This document shows, piece by piece, positions 24,904 through 33,399 of a stretch of DNA of 33,399 nt. The number at the start of each line of letters is the position of its first letter. Position 1 is the stretch's first letter. This DNA is from Acidimicrobiaceae bacterium (GTDB lineage Bacteria; Actinomycetota; Acidimicrobiia; Acidimicrobiales; RAAP-2): positions 1-33,399 of the forward strand of contig PKXA01000065.1 in NCBI GenBank assembly GCA_003133325.1. The letters are read 5' to 3'. The translations under genes and the position numbers were made by a program. The notes below the pieces were generated by a model that saw nothing but the letters and a program-made list of their open reading frames with translations, was not told the DNA's origin and did not search any database.

Positions 24904-25099
24904 AGCGCGCGCCAATAGGTCCGTCGTTTGGGGCATCTCGCCGCCGCCTCGCTCAGGCTGTGGCCACCTCCAGACCCGAGGGTGTTCACGGCTGTTGAAC
25001 AAGCAGATCGCAGGGGGCGGACACCGGTACACGCGAGCACGACAGCGCCTGATGTCGAGGACGACTGCGACACCACCGACACCGACGGTGGTGGTGGTG

Positions 25100-25412
25100 T
25101 CGGGGCAGACCTCGTTGGCATAGCGGTCGATGGCAAGACGGTGAGAGGTGCGAAGCGAACAGATGGTACCCAGGTCCAGCTGCTGGCAGCGTTTCGTCAC
25201 GACACCGGAATGGTGATCGGTCAACGCAACGTCGAGAACGAGAAGACGAATGAGATTCTTGCTTTCGCTCCGCTGCTCGCACCCGTTGCCCTTTCGGGCA
25301 GGGTCGTCATTGCAGACGCGATGCACACCCAGAGAAAGGCCGCGGAGGTCGTCATCGGACGCTGCGGGCACTACATCTTCGGCGTAAAGGGGCACTTCGG
25401 ATTTGAGCGGGG
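25100..25412 (+). pseudogene. ISAs1-family transposase remnant
   Basis: Only the middle of a transposase survives: LVGIAVDGKTVRGAKRTDG (first Asp), VIGQRNVENEKTNEILAF, LSGRVVIADAMHTQRKAAEV (second Asp) and HYIFGVKGHF, after which similarity stops close to the ISL3 left end. The upstream residues in frame (from 24928) do not resemble an ISAs1 N-terminus. It is related to, but clearly diverged from, the copy at 21598 and lies in the opposite orientation. ISL3 insertion may have removed its end. Confidence 0.8.
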
Positions 25413-25487
25413 TGTAGGGGTCCCTGACGCGTAGCGGGGGCTCTGCCAATCTGACGGTTCTCGATACCTTCAGACTGGAGAACCCCC

Positions 25488-26655
25488 GTGGAATCAGACC
25501 CTACGCGCATGTGCGAGCTTCTTGTTGGTTTGCCTGATGTGAATGTGCTGGGAATCGACGACGTGGTCGGTCAGCCGTTGCAAGTTCACGTCGAGCTGCG
25601 AGGTTCGCGAACAGGGTGTGAGGCCTGCGGCGTGTTCGCGTGGGTCAAGGACCGACCGGTCGTCGACCTGGTCGACTTGCCGTGTTTCGGGCGCCCGACC
25701 CATGTGTTGTGGCACAAGCGCCGCCTGTGGTGTCCGGAACCGTCATGTGCGCGTGGGTCGTGGACGGAGGACGAGCTGGGGATCGCAGCGCCTCGCATGG
25801 GAATGACCGACCGCTCCGGCCGGTGGATCACCGAGCAGGTCGGCCGCTATGCCCGAAGCGTGAACGAGGTGGCGGTCGAACTCGGCACCGACTGGCACAC
25901 CATCAACGACACGTTGATCGCCTATGGCACCGCATTGGTCGATGACGACCCGGACCGGTTCGGTGTCGTTGAGGCCCTCGGACTCGATGAGGTGCTGTTC
26001 TGTCGCATCGGACCCTGGCGCAGACAGGAGTTCTCCACCCAGATCGTCGACGTCGGTCGTGGTCAACTCCTCGACGTCGTCCCTGGTCGCAGCAGCGCAG
26101 GTCCCATGGCTTGGCTGGCCGAACAAGGGAAGCCATGGCGGGACCAGGTCCGCTACGCCACCTTGGACCTCTCGGGCCCCTACCGGGCCGTCTTCGATGC
26201 CATGGTCCCCGATGCCACTCAGGTGGCCGACCCATTCCACGTGGTCAAATTGGCCAACACCAAGCTCGACGAATGCCGACGCCGGGTACAGAACGAGACC
26301 ATGGGCCACCGAGGCCACAAGGCCGATCCGCTCTACCGGTGCCGGAGGCTCCTCACCAAGGCCGACGAACGTCTCGACGACCACGGCCGGGAGAAGCTGC
26401 TCGGACTACTGCGGGCCGGAGACCCCAAGGGCGACGTGACGACCATGTGGCACGCGAAGGAAGCGGTTCGTGCGCTGTATTCCCATGAGGACTCCGAGCT
26501 TGCACTCGAATGGGTCGAGCGCCTCGCCGCCGATCTCAACGACACGGACTACCCGATCGAGGCTCGATCGCTCAGTCGCACGCTGATCCGCTGGAAGCAC
26601 CAGATCGCCGCCTGGCACGAGGCCCACGTCAGCAATGGACCTACCGAGGCGGTCA
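25488..26655 (+). pseudogene. ISL3-family transposase, 5' part (split by insertion)
   Basis: DDE transposase with an N-terminal zinc ribbon: GCEACGVFAW and LWCPEPSCARGSW, then an HTH region and catalytic core LGLDEVLFCRIG, DLSGPYRAVFDAMVPDATQV, ADPFHVVKLAN. It breaks off at SNGPTEAV, the conserved site where family members continue NNLIKRVKR. From 26656 the frame runs into foreign sequence and stops at 26771. The missing end is at 30306-30433. GTG 25488 has GGAGA a few bases upstream; ATG 25509 is the alternative. Confidence 0.92.
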
Positions 26656-26734
26656 TTCTCTGGAGGGTCAGATCGAGTGTCTTTGACGTCGCCGACAGGG
26701 CCAGTTTCTCCCGTCGACGACACATTCTCTGGAG
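26654..26734 (+). repeat. Direct repeat CATTCTCTGGAG at the left end of the Tn554-type unit
   Basis: Two perfect 12-base copies at 26654-26665 and 26723-26734. The first sits at the crossover boundary and the second 69 bases inward. Together with the inverted CTCCAGATAA at the right end (30290-30299), they look like core and arm binding sites of the encoded recombinases. Confidence 0.6.
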
Positions 26735-26828
26735 CGCGTCGCTGACATCCACAGTCTTGGCGCCTGCGTGAATTAGACAGGCGTTCCTCACGGGCCCGCA
26801 GTTCGCCGGTCGTGCGAAAGGCAGACCA

Positions 26829-27914
26829 GTGCGAGTGCAGCGCGTCATCATGCCGGTCAGCGGCGCCGAGTCTTGGACGGTGGTCGACGACAAGGCCTGC
26901 GTCGTCGAACCGGCGGAGCGATATCTTGCTCACTTGGCGGCCATCGAGCGGTCTCCCAACACCGTGAAGGCTTACGCCCACGGCCTTCGGTTGTGGTTCG
27001 AGTTCTTGGAAGCGAAGGCACGTAATTGGGAAGGAGTTGGCGCCGAGGACCTCTCCCGGTTCGTTGGCTGGCTGCGGGCGCCGGCGGACAACGTGATCCT
27101 CTTGAACGACCGGTCTGGATTACGGAGCGAGGCGACGGTCAATCGGCACCTGGCTGCGGTGTTCGGACTCTACGACTTTCATATGCGATCCGGTCTGCAA
27201 GTGGCGGCAGACCTCGTCTCTTGGCGACGGGTGTCCCGGGGTTCTTTCAAGCCCTTCCTCCACCACGTGACCGCTGGGCGACCGGTGAGGACCCGTCCCA
27301 TCAAGCTCCGGGTCACCCGCCGCTTTCCGAGGACACTCGATCGTGCCGAGATCACCGCCATCTTGGCCGCCTGCGACCATTTGCGGGACCGCTTCCTCTT
27401 CGCGTTGTTGGCCGAGACTGGCATGCGCGTCGGCCAGGCGCTCGGGCTGCGCCACGAGGACTTCGTCAGCCGGGAGTGCAGAGTCGTGATCGTCCCGAGA
27501 GATGACAACGCAAATGGTGCCCGGGCCAAGTGTTCTGAGCTTGTCGAACTTCCGATCACCGCTTCCTTGGTCAGGCTCTACAGCGAGTACCTGCACACCG
27601 AATACGGCTCGATCGATTCGGACTACGTGTTCGTGAATCTTTGGTCGGCACCGATCGGGAGGCCGCTTCGTTACGACGCCGTGGCCAAACTGGTGGCACG
27701 GTTGCGGGCCCGCACCGGCATCGCATTCAGCCCCCATACCTTCCGCCACTCCAGGGCAACCGAGCTCGTCCGGTCAGGAACGCCGATCGAAGTGGTCTCG
27801 AAGATGCTCACCCACCGGTCGGTCACGACGACCAGTTCCGCCTATGTCCACCTCGGCGCTGAGGATCTGAGAGCCGAACTCGTGCGAGCAGGCGCTTGGG
27901 AGATGCCCCAATGA
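26829..27914 (+). CDS. Tyrosine recombinase, TnpA-like of Tn554 family
   Basis: Site-specific integrase of 361 residues. N-terminal SAM-like DNA-binding domain (SPNTVKAYAHGLRLWFEF), then the catalytic domain with Arg200 in AETGMRVGQALGLRHEDF, His303-x-x-Arg306 in SPHTFRHSRATELV, His329 in LTHRS, and the nucleophile Tyr339 in SSAYVHL. All key residues are present, so it may be active. GTG 26829 has AAAGG eight bases upstream; ATG 26850 is a later option. Its stop overlaps the next start by ATGA. Confidence 0.92.
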   Translation: MRVQRVIMPVSGAESWTVVDDKACVVEPAERYLAHLAAIERSPNTVKAYAHGLRLWFEFLEAKARNWEGVGAEDLSRFVGWLRAPADNVILLNDRSGLRSEATVNRHLAAVFGLYDFHMRSGLQVAADLVSWRRVSRGSFKPFLHHVTAGRPVRTRPIKLRVTRRFPRTLDRAEITAILAACDHLRDRFLFALLAETGMRVGQALGLRHEDFVSRECRVVIVPRDDNANGARAKCSELVELPITASLVRLYSEYLHTEYGSIDSDYVFVNLWSAPIGRPLRYDAVAKLVARLRARTGIAFSPHTFRHSRATELVRSGTPIEVVSKMLTHRSVTTTSSAYVHLGAEDLRAELVRAGAWEMPQ

Positions 27915-29857
27915 GCGCACTTGTCCAGTCCAACGAAGACAACGGCTATCTCGAGGCGCTGTTTCATGCCCTTCGACCAGAGTTCCGCGGCGAGATCGTG
28001 CGCATGGACCCTGACAGCCCGGTCTTCGGTCGTGGACGCTGCGAGGTGGCCGGTTGCGAGCGGAGCGGATGGACTCGCCGGCTGTGCGTCGCCCACTACC
28101 AGCGCTGGCAAAAGGGCGGGAAGGGAGACCTTGACCAGTTTCGGGCCACAACCGGCCCGGCCAACGACCGTCCCGGATCATCGATGATCGACGCCTTCGA
28201 CCTGTCGGGTCTGGCGCCTCTGCTCCGATTCGAGGTCGCCTACTTGCTGCAACGTCGCCACGACGAACGTGGCGTGATCGTGCTTCACTCGGTCATCCGC
28301 CACGTTGTGGCCTTGGTGGTTGCCAGTGGTGTGCACTCATTGTTCGACCGGCCGCTCGATGACTGGGTCGATGACGTCAGGAAGGCTGGGTGGGGCGCCG
28401 ACCGCACCATCGCCACCTTCCGCTTTGCCTACCGGGAGCTCGCCGACATCCATGGGATCGACATCGAAGCCGAGTACGCATCCGACACCTGGGTGGCGAC
28501 TCGTCTCGGGATCGTTCAGAAACGCCAGCCCTATCGGATCAGCTTCGACCAAATTGGTCAGCCCTGGTTGCGCACCGCCGTCAAGCGGTGGCTTCGGCAC
28601 CGGCTCGGATCGGGCATCACGTTCGGAAGCGTGTGTGTCGACCTGCGATCGATGATCTGGTTCAGCAGGTTCCTCAATGAGCGACTGCCTGGGTCGGCCG
28701 ATGAGCGAATGATCGAGCGCCGACACCTCGAGGACTACCTCTCCTGGCTCGTCGCCTCGGAGCTGGCCCCCCACACCAAGAGCACCTACATCGTCTGTCT
28801 GCGCACCTTCCTCGAAGCCTGCAGACGTCACGTGATGCTCACGGGCCTCGGTGCCGACGTGGCCATCTACAGCGATGACCTCCCCAGCCGACCCCGGCCG
28901 TTGCCTCGCTACATCCCCGAGGCCGTCATGGCTCAGCTTGAATCTCCGGAACACCTCGACCAACTCCCCGACCATACGACCCGGGCCCTGGTGGTGGTGC
29001 TCATCGAAACCGGCCTGAGAGCAAACGATGCATGCCAACTTGCCTTCGATGCGCTCGTTCCGGACAGTGGTGGTGGTCCATGTCTCCGCTTCTTGAACGC
29101 AAAGATGGGCGCCGAGCAGTTGGTGCCGTTGAGTGCCAAAGCTGCCGTCGCGGTGCGGGACCAGCAGGACCACCTCCGCCTTCGATGGCCGGACGGCCCA
29201 GCGTTCCTGTTCCCCGCACCGCAATCCAACCCCGACGGGCTCCGCCCTTTCGCATATGGAACCCTCCGAATGCGGCTCACCCGCTGGCAAAGCGACATCG
29301 ACCTGCGTGACGAGACCGGACGTCCGTTCCGGTTCAGCGCCCATCGCTTCCGCCACACCCTGGGGACCCGCCTGATTAACCAAGGCGTTCCCCAGCATGT
29401 GGTCCAACGAATTCTTGGACACGCCAGCCCGCAGATGACTGCCCGCTATGCCACCCTTCACGACACCACCGTCCGACGCGCCTTCGATGCGTACTGGAAC
29501 GACCGGGTCTCCATTCTGGGCGAGCGCATCGCCTTCGATCCTGCCGGCCCAACTGCCGACGCCGAGTGGACCAAGCACAATCTCGCTCGCGTTCAGGCGA
29601 GCCTGCCCAATGGCTATTGCGGACGACCTCCTCAACAGGACTGTCCCCATCCGAATGCCTGCCTGACATGTCCAGACTTCCAGACGACACCGGAGTTCCT
29701 CGACGTCCATCGTCGTCAACGTGACGACACCCACAAGCTCATTGCCACCGCCCACGCAGACGGGCGATTCCGGATGGCCGACAACCATCGCAAGGTACTC
29801 GACAACCTCGTCCATGTCATCGCTTCACTCGAATCACTGGAGGATCCCACACCATGA
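27911..29857 (+). CDS. Tyrosine recombinase, TnpB-like of Tn554 family
   Basis: Large integrase of 648 residues acting with TnpA. Its N-terminus has a Cys/His cluster (Cys44 and Cys49 in GRCEVAGCE, Cys59 and His62 in RLCVAHYQRW) resembling a zinc finger. The catalytic domain includes IETGLRANDACQLAF, AHRFRHTLGTRL, ILGHASPQMTARYATLHD with the presumed Tyr nucleophile in ARYAT. A second Cys-rich segment, YCGRPPQQDCPHPNACLTC, lies near the C-terminus, as is usual in this family. ATG 27911 overlaps the TnpA stop. Confidence 0.92.
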   Translation: MSALVQSNEDNGYLEALFHALRPEFRGEIVRMDPDSPVFGRGRCEVAGCERSGWTRRLCVAHYQRWQKGGKGDLDQFRATTGPANDRPGSSMIDAFDLSGLAPLLRFEVAYLLQRRHDERGVIVLHSVIRHVVALVVASGVHSLFDRPLDDWVDDVRKAGWGADRTIATFRFAYRELADIHGIDIEAEYASDTWVATRLGIVQKRQPYRISFDQIGQPWLRTAVKRWLRHRLGSGITFGSVCVDLRSMIWFSRFLNERLPGSADERMIERRHLEDYLSWLVASELAPHTKSTYIVCLRTFLEACRRHVMLTGLGADVAIYSDDLPSRPRPLPRYIPEAVMAQLESPEHLDQLPDHTTRALVVVLIETGLRANDACQLAFDALVPDSGGGPCLRFLNAKMGAEQLVPLSAKAAVAVRDQQDHLRLRWPDGPAFLFPAPQSNPDGLRPFAYGTLRMRLTRWQSDIDLRDETGRPFRFSAHRFRHTLGTRLINQGVPQHVVQRILGHASPQMTARYATLHDTTVRRAFDAYWNDRVSILGERIAFDPAGPTADAEWTKHNLARVQASLPNGYCGRPPQQDCPHPNACLTCPDFQTTPEFLDVHRRQRDDTHKLIATAHADGRFRMADNHRKVLDNLVHVIASLESLEDPTP

Positions 29858-30228
29858 CCGATCAAGATCCCACCCCGCTCGACCTGGCCACTCAGGAACG
29901 TTGTCGGGAAGTCCGCAGAAGGGCCGAGGGGGCGATCCGCCAACTGGACGAGCGAGGGATGCCGATCAACTTCGCCTCGGTGGCCTCCGCAGCTACGGTG
30001 TCCCGGTCATGGCTCTATCGGGACGCCAACATCCGCGCCTCCATCGAACGGCTTCGGACCGTGCGGCGGAGCCAGCCAATCCCCGCCACCCAGCGGGCTT
30101 CAGCCGACTCCATACGGCGTCAGCGAGAGGCCCTGCTCGACGAAATCGCTCGCCTCACGCACGAGAACAAACAACTGCGGGCCGAAGTCGCGAAAGTGTT
30201 CGGTGATCGACGGAGCGCACGCACATGA
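29854..30228 (+). CDS. DUF6262 family protein (TnpC-like)
   Basis: Small accessory protein of 124 residues encoded third in Tn554-type units; TnpC affects transposition efficiency and orientation in Tn554. Features: an HTH-like stretch INFASVASAATVSRSWLYRD and a C-terminal coiled coil RQREALLDEIARLTHENKQL. ATG 29854 overlaps the TnpB stop (ATGA). The function is inferred from position and family. Confidence 0.85.
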   Translation: MTDQDPTPLDLATQERCREVRRRAEGAIRQLDERGMPINFASVASAATVSRSWLYRDANIRASIERLRTVRRSQPIPATQRASADSIRRQREALLDEIARLTHENKQLRAEVAKVFGDRRSART

Positions 30229-30305
30229 TCCCGTCAACTACATGTCGCCCGCTCGTCAGCGCAGGTAGATGATCAATTCCGACGAACCACTCCAGATAAC
30301 GGTCA

Positions 30306-30433
30306 ATAATTTGATCAAACGTGTAAAACGCGCCGCATTCGGGTTCACGTCGTTCCGGAACTATCGGATCCGGTCACTGCTCTACGCCGGCAAGCCCAAC
30401 TGGGACCTGCTCGCCACCATCAGACCCCGTTGA
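30306..30433 (+). pseudogene. ISL3-family transposase, 3' part
   Basis: Continuation of the gene broken at 26655. Reading GTC-AAT-AAT across the joined hexamer gives VNNLIKRVKRAAFGF, then FRNYRIRSLLYAGKPNW and DLLATIRPR with stop TGA at 30431-30433. These are the conserved last residues of ISL3 transposases. It has no start of its own and is not expressed as such. Confidence 0.92.
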
Positions 30434-30448
30434 AATCCGAAGAGTCAG

Positions 30449-30484: not shown

Positions 30485-30568
30485 ATGCCGCACAGCGGAT
30501 AATGCCGCATCAAGGCGAAATGTGGTGCTGTCAGGCGGAAGAGCTCGCGTAGCCATTCGGCATAATTA
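30484..30568. repeat. AATGCCG box array next to the recombinase trio
   Basis: AATGCCGCA is found at 30484-30492 and 30501-30509, 17 bases apart, and TTCGGCATAATTA (30556-30568), the inverted form, overlaps the stop codon of the last recombinase gene. With the two arms of the palindrome this makes five related boxes in 120 bases, in both orientations. The rest of the stretch 30229-30299 and 30510-30555 shows no gene. Confidence 0.7.
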
Positions 30569-31555
30569 GAGGCTGTCCAAGAAGGTGAGGAGTTTGTCGG
30601 AGGCGCGGAAACGCCCGGGCTTGGAGTTGAGGGGTGCCGTGCGAGCGAGTGCTCGCTCTTTGAGCGTCATGTCGGCGTGGAGGTAGATGCCGGTCGAGTC
30701 GAGGCTCTCGTGTCCCAGCCAGAGCGCGATCGTCGCGATGTCGGTCCCGGACAGCAGGAGGGTCATCGCCCGTGTGTGCCGGAGGGTATGAGGGGTCACG
30801 GTCTTCGCTCGTAGTGACGGGCAGTTCTCGGATGCGGCAGAAGTGTGCTTGGTAACGAGGTATCCAATCGCGTCACGACTGAGTGCTCCGCCGGCGCGGC
30901 TCGGAAAGACGGGATCGCCGGGCTCACCATGACATTCCTTCATCCAGGCGGTGAGCACCGCAGCCGTCGACTTGCCGATGGGGACGCAGCGCTGCTTGCG
31001 ACCCTTTCCGTGGCACCACAGGTGGGCGCCAGAACCGAGCTTCACATCCTCGCACCTGAGCCGTCGCAACTCCGAGACCCGAAAGCCAGTCCCGAAGCCC
31101 ACCACGAGCAGACAATGGTCGCGCCGGCCGATCCACGTGGAGAGATCCGGGGCGCGAACGAGCGCGTCGACTTCTGCCTCGTCGAGATAGGAAACGATCG
31201 TGCGTTCCGAGCGCTTTGGCGGAATGGCGAGGACACGGCTGATCAGGTTGGCGTGCTCGGGGCACGACAACGCCGCGTAGGAGAAGAAGGACCGCAACGC
31301 CGCGAGCCGGATGTTTCGCGTCGCGACGCTGCTGCCCCGGTTCCGCTCGAGGTGATCGAGGAAGGCCCCGATCACCGATGCATCGAGGTCGCCGAGTTCG
31401 AGCTTCGAGGGAGCCTTGCCTGTCTTTTCGTTGACGAATCGGAGGAGGAGGCAGAAGGCGTCTCGGTAGGAGGCGATGGTGTGCGGGCTCGCATCTCTTT
31501 GGCGGGTCAGACGGTCGGTGAAGTAGGCCTCGAGCAGTGGGGCGAACTGGGTCAT
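30566..31555 (-). CDS. Tyrosine recombinase, third gene of the RIT trio (RitC-type)
   Basis: 329 residues with an N-terminal core-binding domain (SPHTIASYRDAFCLLLRFVN) and a full catalytic set: Arg159 in GTGFRVSELRRL, His256-x-x-Arg259 in TPHTLRHTRAMTLL, His282 in LGHES and Tyr291 in TGIYLHAD. ATG 31555 overlaps the stop of the second recombinase gene by ATGA. The gene ends inside a TTCGGCATAATTA box. Confidence 0.92.
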   Translation of the reverse strand: MTQFAPLLEAYFTDRLTRQRDASPHTIASYRDAFCLLLRFVNEKTGKAPSKLELGDLDASVIGAFLDHLERNRGSSVATRNIRLAALRSFFSYAALSCPEHANLISRVLAIPPKRSERTIVSYLDEAEVDALVRAPDLSTWIGRRDHCLLVVGFGTGFRVSELRRLRCEDVKLGSGAHLWCHGKGRKQRCVPIGKSTAAVLTAWMKECHGEPGDPVFPSRAGGALSRDAIGYLVTKHTSAASENCPSLRAKTVTPHTLRHTRAMTLLLSGTDIATIALWLGHESLDSTGIYLHADMTLKERALARTAPLNSKPGRFRASDKLLTFLDSL

Positions 31556-32484
31556 CGTAGAATCTCCAATGTCTTCTCGGCCTGACTCGCGGCGAAGGCC
31601 AGCAGCTCGGGCACGGCTTCCAAGTACCAGTAGGTGGAGCCCGGGTCGACGTGGCCGAGCACGGTCGACAGCAACGGAAGGAGCGCAGCGACGTCAGCTC
31701 CCGAGCGATTCCACTCGAGCAACTGGTGCACCGCGAAGCCGTGGCGGAAGTCATGCAAACGGGGCCGACACCGGTCCGACCGAGGCTCGAGGCCAGCCTG
31801 CTTGGCCAGCCGGGCGAACACCGGCTGAACCGACTTGTAGGTGAGCCTCCCCCCTGCCGTAGAGATGAACAGGTTCGTCGTCGCTGTGGGGAAGAGCTGA
31901 TCTCGGCGCCGGAGATAAGCGACGAGCGCCTCCAGCGTGCTCTGGTGCAGTGGGACTTCTCGGGACTTTCCGAACTTCGAGTCCGAGATGACAAGCACGC
32001 GGTGCTCGGGATCGACGTCGTCTCTGCGGCATCTGAGCAGTTCGCCGATCCGGCAGCCCGTCACCACCAAGAGACCGATCAAGGTCTCGTAGGTGACAGC
32101 CTTCAACGGACGGAGCCCCCGCCGGGCTGCCGCCATCAGCGCTTCGACGTCCTGGTCGGAGTACAAATACGGCTCGGCCCGGTAGTTGCTGTGCGGGCGG
32201 GCCACGACGAGCCCCTTGGGCGGCACCTCGGTCTGTGGATCGAGGGTCGCCAGATACTTGGCGAACCCACGCACGATCGTGAGGCGGTTCTTCCACACGA
32301 TCGGATCGGCATCCGCCGACTGTGTGGCCCACGCCAGTGAGAGCTCGTTGGTGACCGAGGTCACCCCTTGGTCAGCGAGAAAGGCGACAAAGCGGGGAAG
32401 CAACTTGGCGTGCTTCTCGAGCTTGAAGCCGAACGCGCGACGGATGGAGAGGTAGTCGGCAACTGCCTGATCGAGTTCGTTCAT
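31552..32484 (-). CDS. Tyrosine recombinase, second gene of the RIT trio (RitB-type)
   Basis: 310 residues from ATG 32484 (MNELDQAVADYLSIRRAFGF, the usual start in this branch). Catalytic residues: Arg145 in TGCRIGELLRC, His244-x-x-Arg247 in LHDFRHGFAV, His278 in LGHVDPG and Tyr287 in STYWYLEAVPEL, the WYL form typical of the RIT second recombinase. ATG 32484 overlaps TGA 32483-32481, the stop that the first recombinase would use if its frameshift were repaired. A short upstream extension to 32502 is not needed. Confidence 0.92.
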   Translation of the reverse strand: MNELDQAVADYLSIRRAFGFKLEKHAKLLPRFVAFLADQGVTSVTNELSLAWATQSADADPIVWKNRLTIVRGFAKYLATLDPQTEVPPKGLVVARPHSNYRAEPYLYSDQDVEALMAAARRGLRPLKAVTYETLIGLLVVTGCRIGELLRCRRDDVDPEHRVLVISDSKFGKSREVPLHQSTLEALVAYLRRRDQLFPTATTNLFISTAGGRLTYKSVQPVFARLAKQAGLEPRSDRCRPRLHDFRHGFAVHQLLEWNRSGADVAALLPLLSTVLGHVDPGSTYWYLEAVPELLAFAASQAEKTLEILR

Positions 32485-33399
32485 GGCCGGAGTCCTGGCC
32501 ACGGCCGGGCAAGCTCTTGGAGGCGATCTCTATCAACTTTCGCGTAGATCGAGTCGTCGCCGGGTGCACGTGCCGAAGTACCTGACCGATCTCGGAGAGC
32601 GGCGCACCATGAGCGAGCATGTTGGTGGCCATCGAATGACGGATCAGGTGCGCTCCGACCTGAGGCAGCCCGGCCCGGTCACACGCGGCGCGCACCACCA
32701 TCCCGATCGCATCGCTGCTCAAGCCTTCAACAGGTGCTCTCGCCCGCAGGAACAATCGTCGGCACTCAGAACGAGGACGGCCCATCTTGAGGTAGGAGGT
32801 GATGGCCTGCCCGACATCGCGGGGAATGGGGAGGCGGTCACGGCGACTTCCCTTGCCGTGGACGACGATCTCTCCTGCCCTCCAGTCCATGTCGTCGAGG
32901 CCGAGCAGCGCCACCTCCCCACTTCTGAGCCCAAGGCGAGCGAGCAGCGTCAGGATCGAGAAATCTCGTCTCCCGATGGGCGTCGCCTGATCGCAGCTCC
33001 CCAACAGGAGGGCCACCTGTCCGGGGTTGAGTGCACGCGGCAACGATCTGAGACGCCAGGCCGCGACCGACGGGACCGCCGAGGTCAGGTCGAGAGGCGT
33101 GCGCCCCTCTGCGTGGAGGAACCGCAACAGCGACCGAAGCGACGTCGCCAGAGTGCTGAGCGTCTTCGCCGTCCCGGGTGGCGCCACTTCACGTCGCCGG
33201 CTGGCTTGGAGCACGAAGCCCGACACGGTGCACGACGAAAGGTGTTCGAGATCGAGGCTCGCGGGTCCGGAGAGCTCGTCCAAGAAGAGGGCAGCGTCAG
33301 CCACGTAGGTGCAAACCGTCGAGGGCGCCAACGCTCGCTCGCGCCCGAGGTAGCTCGCGTACTCATCCAACAGCTGCTCCGTCGGCGTAGTCGGGGCCC
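32372..33399 (-). pseudogene. Tyrosine recombinase, first gene of the RIT trio (RitA-type), frameshifted and cut by the window edge
   Basis: The frame is open through the right edge (residues APTTPTEQLLDEYASYLGRE), so the start is outside. It keeps Arg in LGLRSGEVALLGLDD and His-x-x-Arg in VGAHLIRHSMATNM, then VLRHVHPATT. There the frame should continue SIYAKVDRDRLQELARPWPG with the nucleophile Tyr nine residues after the His, and stop at TGA 32481-32483 overlapping the next ATG. That sequence is present but one base out of frame (near 32549-32556); the actual frame reads RSTRKLIEIA and ends at 32372 inside the next gene. The product lacks the catalytic Tyr. Causes: real mutation, programmed slippage or a sequencing error. 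Confidence 0.88.

Follow-up and report, generated by a model that had tools for sequence, protein, structure and literature searches.

The window analysed here, the 33,399-nucleotide contig PKXA01000065.1 of an Acidimicrobiaceae bacterium (assembly GCA_003133325.1), contains an ISL3 transposase gene that is split at GPTEAV|NNLIK by a Tn554-type unit of 3,650 bp carrying tnpA, tnpB and tnpC, with the hexamer CGGTCA at both junctions. The 5′ part of the transposase gene (25488..26654, + strand; 389 codons, the last inside the left core) opens at GTG 25488 and matches the DDE_Tnp_ISL3 domain up to profile position 216 of 240 (PF01610, E 1.4e-39) as well as NF033550 (E 1.5e-70; 238 bits against a cut-off of 180), which places the interrupted gene in the ISL3 family. 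Likeness to the family ends past the GTC codon that closes at 26654. The frame picks up again with VNNLIKRVKRAAFGFTSFRNYRIRSLLYAGKPNWDLLATIRPR, the GTC codon lying at 30302, and this 3′ part (30302..30433, + strand; 43 codons and the stop at 30433) agrees with the tails of intact ISL3 transposases. The two CGGTCA cores, at 26650..26655 on the tnpA side and at 30300..30305 on the other (both + strand), lie 3,650 bp apart, and rejoining the frame gives, by codon arithmetic, 388 + 43 = 431 residues. The original prediction, made from the letters of the window, had proposed a Tn554-type unit inside an ISL3 transposase with CGGTCA at both joints and a joined frame of 431 residues, and the profile matches and the codon count agree with it; of the break points it gave, 26655 and 30303, the spacing of 3,650 bp stands, and the resumption codon is corrected to a start at 30302. 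Coincidence is excluded for these junctions, because the identical codon and end motifs are found again at other loci.

The three genes of the unit are co-directional and comprise a short and a long tyrosine recombinase followed by tnpC, as in Tn554-related transposons. TnpA (361 residues; 26829..27914, + strand) is assigned to the tyrosine recombinases by Pfam match only (PF00589, E 5e-29; PF02899, E 4e-12). In the long recombinase TnpB (653 residues; 27896..29857, + strand; PF00589, E 1.6e-21), residues R375, H483, R486, H509 and Y518 are invariant in all 11 aligned relatives and, from the motif R-H-x-x-R-H-Y, are the putative catalytic set. TnpC (124 residues; 29854..30228, + strand) is a DUF6262 protein (PF19776, E 1.8e-12). 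The tips of the unit form an inverted repeat, TTCTCTGGAG at 26656..26665 (+ strand), which is similar in relatives, and its counterpart at 30290..30299 (− strand), which reads CTCCAGATAA on the + strand. A second, direct copy of TTCTCTGGAG lies 69 bp inward (26725..26734, + strand), with the same spacing in the related units L016, L017, L018, L031 and L085. No cargo gene is seen within the window unit. The unit also differs from other recombinase elements: three recombination genes lie between its cores, with no tfp or other fourth core gene of a strand-biased circularizing integrative element (SE); it has two recombinases and a DUF6262 gene rather than the three adjacent tyrosine recombinases of 300–400 residues of a RIT element; and its target is an ISL3 transposase gene rather than radC.

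A scan of genome contigs with TnpB returned seven loci, five of them true relatives; L021 and L022 were dropped (39–43 residues matched, E 3e-5 and 1e-4). Strong TnpB matches occur in 8 of 395 genomes of the class, the window's own included. The TnpB clade of the window comprises 13 units, 12 rows of the tree described below plus L020, all on contigs of draft genomes. The original prediction had proposed checking whether related units occupy the equivalent codon in further ISL3 transposases, and 12 of the 13 do. Both junctions are read in ISL3 for the window unit, L016, L017, L018, L031 and L073, and one junction for L019 (left side), L020 (right side), L074, L085, L146 and L147; the 13th unit, L034, is truncated at a contig end, where its target is unreadable. 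The left junction follows the pattern GA[A/G]G[core]TT[A/C]TC[T/A]GGAG in L016, L017, L018, L031 and L019, and the right junction follows CTCCAGATAA[core]ACAA in L016, L017, L018, L031 and L020.

The host transposases are far from uniform. Over the matched part, identity to the window ISL3 is 57% for L016, 67% for L017 and L018, 64% for L031 and 38% for L019, so the conserved segment that had been put forward as a landing site usable in many genomes is occupied at the same codon in ISL3s as low as 38% identical. The ISL3s that hold L073, L085 and L074 are of quite separate lineages (GLIEST|NTKIR, LSEAT| and |VNNRVRLITRR), with the codon phase unchanged. The L073 transposase matches PF01610 with E 3e-14 and that of L085 with E 0.002, which is below the cut-off, and the break falls at profile position 215 in L073 and 216 in both L085 and the window. 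L146 and L147, which came from the later search only, fall within the ISL3 clade, and in both the core is followed by the tail of an ISL3 transposase, in line with the hypothesis; the L147 tail is 69% identical to the window ISL3 over 36 residues. On plasmids we found no near DNA copy of the window unit (all 19 matching records cover less than 80% of it). Alignment of TnpB against viral contigs gave no relative, and against phages just distant matches (4 records, coverage ≤70%, identity 22–30%).

A close ISL3 transposase is present in 32 of the 395 class genomes, and 30 of the 47 places listed were inspected for empty sites. At 22 of these 30 the gene is uninterrupted, running from E-A/S/G-x codons straight into NNL, and the intact relatives that read through the proposed joint, as the original prediction had called for, are at hand. 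Two of the 22, L096 and L114, hit a stop further downstream. The remaining eight are three interrupted genes (the window and two already known), three contiguous genes with a frameshift and two partial matches. On the DNA of 20 of the 22 intact genes, the 30-nucleotide junction site ranks 11th of 1,066 segments for conservation. Positions adjoining the core are mostly 85–100% conserved, and those within it fall to 50–70%, with nine different cores; conserved surroundings with a freer core would be the expected look of recombinase arms around an overlap.

Close relatives in different copies of a target bear on how the unit moves. L053 and L083, both in IS3 transposase genes, have units that are 100.00% identical over 3,919 bp and IS3 flanks that are 88.9% and 91.3% identical, with exchanged cores (CATTGG..CGTTGG versus CGTTGG..CATTGG). 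L049 and L061 occupy one codon of two tyrosine-recombinase genes, with the unit 99.95% identical over 3,990 bp and the flanks 47% and 49%. Within the window clade, a single genome contains both L017 and L018, whose units agree at 99.95% over 3,645 bp with six gap columns and whose ISL3 flanks agree at 99.1% of 1,199 and 97.1% of 140 positions. These comparisons show the unit moving apart from its host insertion sequence (IS). In addition, the relatives follow the 6-bp junction rule of Tn554-related transposons, the target's six base pairs standing on one side and the donor's on the other; since the two cores of the window are alike, the rule is not visible there. We compared cores with intact relatives of two targets, L061 and L050. 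The tnpA-side core of L061, TGCAAC, has the same six letters as the intact relative and the other core, TCCAGC, differs, and the tnpA-side core of L050 is nearer to the intact gene (four of six letters versus two of six for the other side).

A different history would have a single ancient insertion into ISL3, the composite of ISL3 and unit having since been inherited or transposed whole. It would suit L083 and L084, which are identical through both IS3 ends in different surroundings, in a genome with no further match to the IS3 transposase concerned at E ≤ 1e-60, and it would suit the ISL3 around L018, whose ends match, by eye, and are bordered by a repeated 8 bp of flanking sequence. Since L083 and L084 are identical through the IS3 ends, an IS with the unit inside may also be copied or moved as a whole. 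Elsewhere, however, unit and host disagree. TnpA and TnpB of L019 are about 70% identical to those of the window whereas its ISL3 is 38% identical, and the L053 and L083 units are 100% identical in IS3 sequences that share 89–91%. Furthermore, the ISL3s of L017 and L018 cluster with an intact ISL3 at 98/93 support, and on the ISL3 tree the interrupted copies are scattered rather than forming one group (five changes, with many of the deep forks poorly resolved). A single ancient insertion is already contradicted for IS3, for the tyrosine recombinases and for L017 and L018, and we regard it as very unlikely.

The more distant clades have the same ends in other genes at fixed positions. Relatives from plasmids and from chromosomes were placed by an end rule (core, TTATC... 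/ ...GATAA, core), and each flank was translated separately and then searched against families. Many loci, among them L019, L020, L031, L035, L050 and L062, gave no core pair or a wrong one in a generic scan, and their cores were taken from the flank sequences. The IS256 units L050, L055, L062 and L089 break the gene at PF00872 positions 338, 337, 338 and 338, and L159 is placed with them because 50 of its residues align to L089 at 78% identity; the ISL3 and IS256 insertion sites both adjoin what we take to be the catalytic glutamate. IS3 transposases are the target of L083 (by Pfam), L066 (by NCBIfam) and, by DNA match, L084, L053 and L072, the last matching L066 at 92.8% over 5,043 bp and supported by eye. 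A reading of the L072 flank as an oxidoreductase was rejected as a wrong reading frame on the same DNA. Both units in istB of IS21, L037 and L068, lie at PF01695 position 210 (L068 below the cut-off), and three of those in tyrosine recombinases, L048, L049 and L061, at PF00589 position 151 (L049 below the cut-off), with L063 added by motif.

Further targets are represented by one unit each: IS1380 (L088), ISAzo13 (L128, the left flank ending at profile position 230 and the right starting at 229), a Tn3 transposase (L065, matched by the right flank, the 37-residue left flank giving no hit), a serine recombinase (L051, from a Pfam match on the N-terminal side and no hit on the other) and TniB (L064, on a Rhodococcus pyridinivorans plasmid). 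The L064 unit lies inside a TniB/TnsC-like ATPase gene, with TnsA-like and TniQ genes adjoining. Two units stand beside such genes: L070, whose neighbour is a Tn3 transposase (DUF4158) and whose junction is not located, and L143, which by eye follows a recombinase gene at an apparent RIT end. Other targets are an apiosidase gene (L069) and SSB (L152), both by Pfam, and those of L067, L150 and L153, placed elsewhere by eye. Related units at sequences without any ISL3 context, which the original prediction had named as the finding that would speak against it, are thus absent among the readable units of the window clade and present in the more distant clades, where many again lie in transposase or recombinase genes and some do not.

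These assignments come from two sets. Set 1 has 42 units, 20 of them from plasmids; 20 of the first 28 plasmid hits were used, and eight were left out as likely near-duplicates (H4–H6, H9, H10, H17, H18 and H21). Set 2, from a later search of 397 genomes of the order (20 with matches, several of them already known), adds 19 units or fragments; the 20th region of that search, L161, appears to be L020 again and is uncounted. Junctions in transposase or recombinase genes number 29 in set 1 (1 beside, 2 elsewhere, 10 unread) and 4 in set 2 (1 beside, 3 elsewhere, 11 unread). Combined, 33 of 61 units lie in such genes, 2 beside them and 5 elsewhere, and 21 are unread, most of them lying at a contig end or lacking ends that can be recognised. 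By family, the 33 (which exclude L070) divide into ISL3 12, IS256 5, IS3 5, tyrosine recombinase 4 and istB 2, with Tn3, TniB, serine recombinase, IS1380 and ISAzo13 at 1 each.

The targets could also reflect an element of broad specificity in DNA rich in mobile elements, with transposase genes hit merely because they are common there; 20 of the 42 set 1 units are plasmid-borne, and five units lie in other genes. Against this, each family is entered at one profile position rather than along the gene, and targets follow the TnpB clades. TnpB trees were built by a quick method with 45 rows (omitting L020) and later 59 rows (omitting L020, L038, L090–L093 and L161); L090–L093, distant plasmid relatives, served as outgroup only. 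On the 45-row tree, nine changes account for 10 target labels. Target families with several members group together on the trees with two exceptions, namely that the two Tn3-labelled units stand apart and that L159, on a long branch, lies beside the IS256 clade and not within it. The window clade (12 rows, support 99) has ISL3 in 11 rows and is unreadable in one, L034; it is known from draft-genome contigs only, yet its target is ISL3 wherever it can be read. Broad specificity is, in our judgement, even less probable than a single ancient insertion.

We are confident that the unit is a Tn554-related transposon with an ISL3 transposase gene as its attachment site, and that it belongs to an actinobacterial family many of whose clades each use one conserved codon. 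Several observations weigh against this reading. Five of the 61 units lie outside transposase and recombinase genes and 21 are unread, and the share of 33 of 38 read units overstates the true one, because a known transposase gene is recognised more readily than a target of unknown kind. Set 2 is less favourable, with 4 of 7 read units in such genes versus 29 of 31 in set 1, and related rows that are not independent inflate the share (L083/L084, L017/L018, L049/L061/L063 and L053). Within the window clade, the short flanks of L074 and L147 give no family hit, and ISL3 is called from the core together with a pairwise match, which is weak for L074; L146 is called from the core and a reading by eye alongside L147. 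A group near the ISL3 clade (L035, L036, L150 and L154) uses another site, with core CGGCAC, and may use a host-type gene; the left flank of L150 resembles a peptidoglycan-binding repeat (LGYWLGARNGT) with no Pfam support. At L068 and L088, the same 3′ half of the target, istB and IS1380 respectively, stands on both sides of the unit and points outward. Simple insertion does not explain these doubled halves, and recombination between two units or the use of two half-sites is possible. L083 and L084, identical through the IS3 ends, belong here too, and excision, circle and integration are predicted events.

The window is one contig (C63) of a 133-contig draft, and a chimeric contig or other assembly artefact has also to be weighed. 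Contig C64 of the same genome (L002/L045, position 1) begins three bases inside the core with another ISL3 3′ end (protein identity 97.6% over 42 residues); the unit may be present a second time, in that other ISL3, ahead of the contig break. The same structure is nevertheless found in separate assemblies and, for other clades, in complete plasmid records, which leaves an artefact scarcely credible. Weak relatives of the unit are also present in the window's own genome (L039–L044 and L047).

Judged by eye from the sequence, the interrupted ISL3 element extends approximately from 25391 to 30446 (+ strand), has imperfect terminal repeats (GGCACTTCGGATTTGAGCGGGGT / GACTCTTCGGATTTCAACGGGGT) and is flanked by CGTAAAGG and AGTAAAGG, which are alike in seven of eight letters and probably represent a target duplication. 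A DDE_Tnp_1 transposase fragment (24928–25434) is seemingly cut by the left end of ISL3 near 25391, and the locus therefore looks nested, with another IS holding the ISL3 and the ISL3 holding the Tn554-like unit. Directly past the right end of ISL3, three adjacent tyrosine recombinases of 329, 316 and 332 residues form a RIT-like trio (30566–33370, − strand), with the palindrome TAATGCCGAATTCGGCATTA between trio and ISL3. The flanks of L143 and L156 resemble RIT element ends, with repeats TTATGCCGAC / CTCGGCAT, and L143 adjoins a recombinase frame ending in GRYRPSDPLLAFLEAL, which may be compared with the ending of the RIT gene in the window, GRFRASDKLLTFLDSL.

The compared sequences establish the exact codon, the orientation, the empty sites, the independent mobility of the unit and the behaviour of the 6-bp core. 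The most probable mechanism is one in which TnpA and TnpB, with TnpC, would recognise the conserved arms around the E-x-x-N codons of ISL3, and strand exchange would take place across the 6-bp core between the unit ends and the ISL3 site, as in Tn554. The unit would be inserted in a fixed orientation, the tnpA-side core remaining the target's own and the tnpC-side core being brought from the previous site. We infer catalysis by TnpA, TnpB and TnpC, a circular or copied intermediate and the loss of ISL3 transposase activity; every insertion should inactivate the transposase of the host element. Across the family, many clades have each come to use a single conserved codon in a transposase or recombinase gene of their own, and some use other genes. 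The ecology of the unit would be that of a transposon that lives in another transposon.

Tn554-type transposons are known for the use of one safe host site, and transposition in the Tn554-related class depends on all of TnpA, TnpB and TnpC. Tn554, Tn558, Tn559, Tn5406 and Tn6188 of the Firmicutes likewise have tnpA-tnpB-tnpC, 6-bp junctions and one conserved gene site, and Tn6188 and its relatives use a single radC site even where the target proteins are only 45–60% alike (PMC3788773). These elements use the radC of the host and Tn6188 carries qacH and a regulator (PMC3788773), whereas the window unit shows no cargo gene and targets the transposase of another element. Actinobacterial Tn554-related elements were defined by Van Houdt et al. 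in 2012 from Mycobacterium, Rhodococcus, Arthrobacter and others, sometimes with several copies per genome, and are of the same class as the window unit, with a long and a short tyrosine recombinase and TnpC (PMC3414803). The Tn554 section of that paper suggests several identical or similar attB sites and names no target (PMC3414803); targets lying in multi-copy elements would explain several copies per genome.

Two other kinds of element invite comparison. The 6-bp rule of SEs, the target's six base pairs on one side and the donor's on the other, is said in their description to be valid for Tn554-related elements too, and one SE is reported inside insJ of IS3 (PMC10214605). In the passages that describe them, SEs have four proteins including Tfp, occur in Gammaproteobacteria and are not presented as transposase-gene specialists, unlike the family of the window unit (PMC10214605). 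Helper-embedded PICIs likewise show an integrase clade with repeated tropism for the genes of another element and subclades that match target sites; they differ in being phage satellites with a primary tyrosine integrase and prophage late genes as targets (PMC10111431). Our literature search, largely of openly accessible papers, found among the matches listed no description of Tn554-related units that target transposase genes.

The interpretation first offered for the window is therefore supported for its own clade, which exemplifies a broader pattern. The scope had been understated, since such target families number about ten, ISL3 among them. The larger family appears from these comparisons to have a pronounced, if not exclusive, tendency to use the transposition and recombination genes of other elements; its members, with one recombinase clade per target, are spread over at least ten such gene families and a small number of additional genes. 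Annotators gain a simple end rule, and the family offers recombinases that differ in their natural target sites; as natural sets with known sites, these units allow tests of how target specificity changes in a tyrosine-recombinase pair. We lean, by a modest margin over doubt, towards a radiating family that has transposons as its habitat, has shifted repeatedly between gene families and, among Actinomycetota, is at once a hyperparasite of insertion sequences and a brake on them. If this is true, the recombinases of many clades would be adapted to a conserved segment of a single transposase or recombinase family, in some cases adjoining the catalytic glutamate, and insertions would destroy the host transposase while the unit rides on copies moved in trans. 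Two further questions become testable: how often IS copies of actinobacteria are interrupted at one shared codon, and whether hyperparasitic transposons limit insertion sequences.

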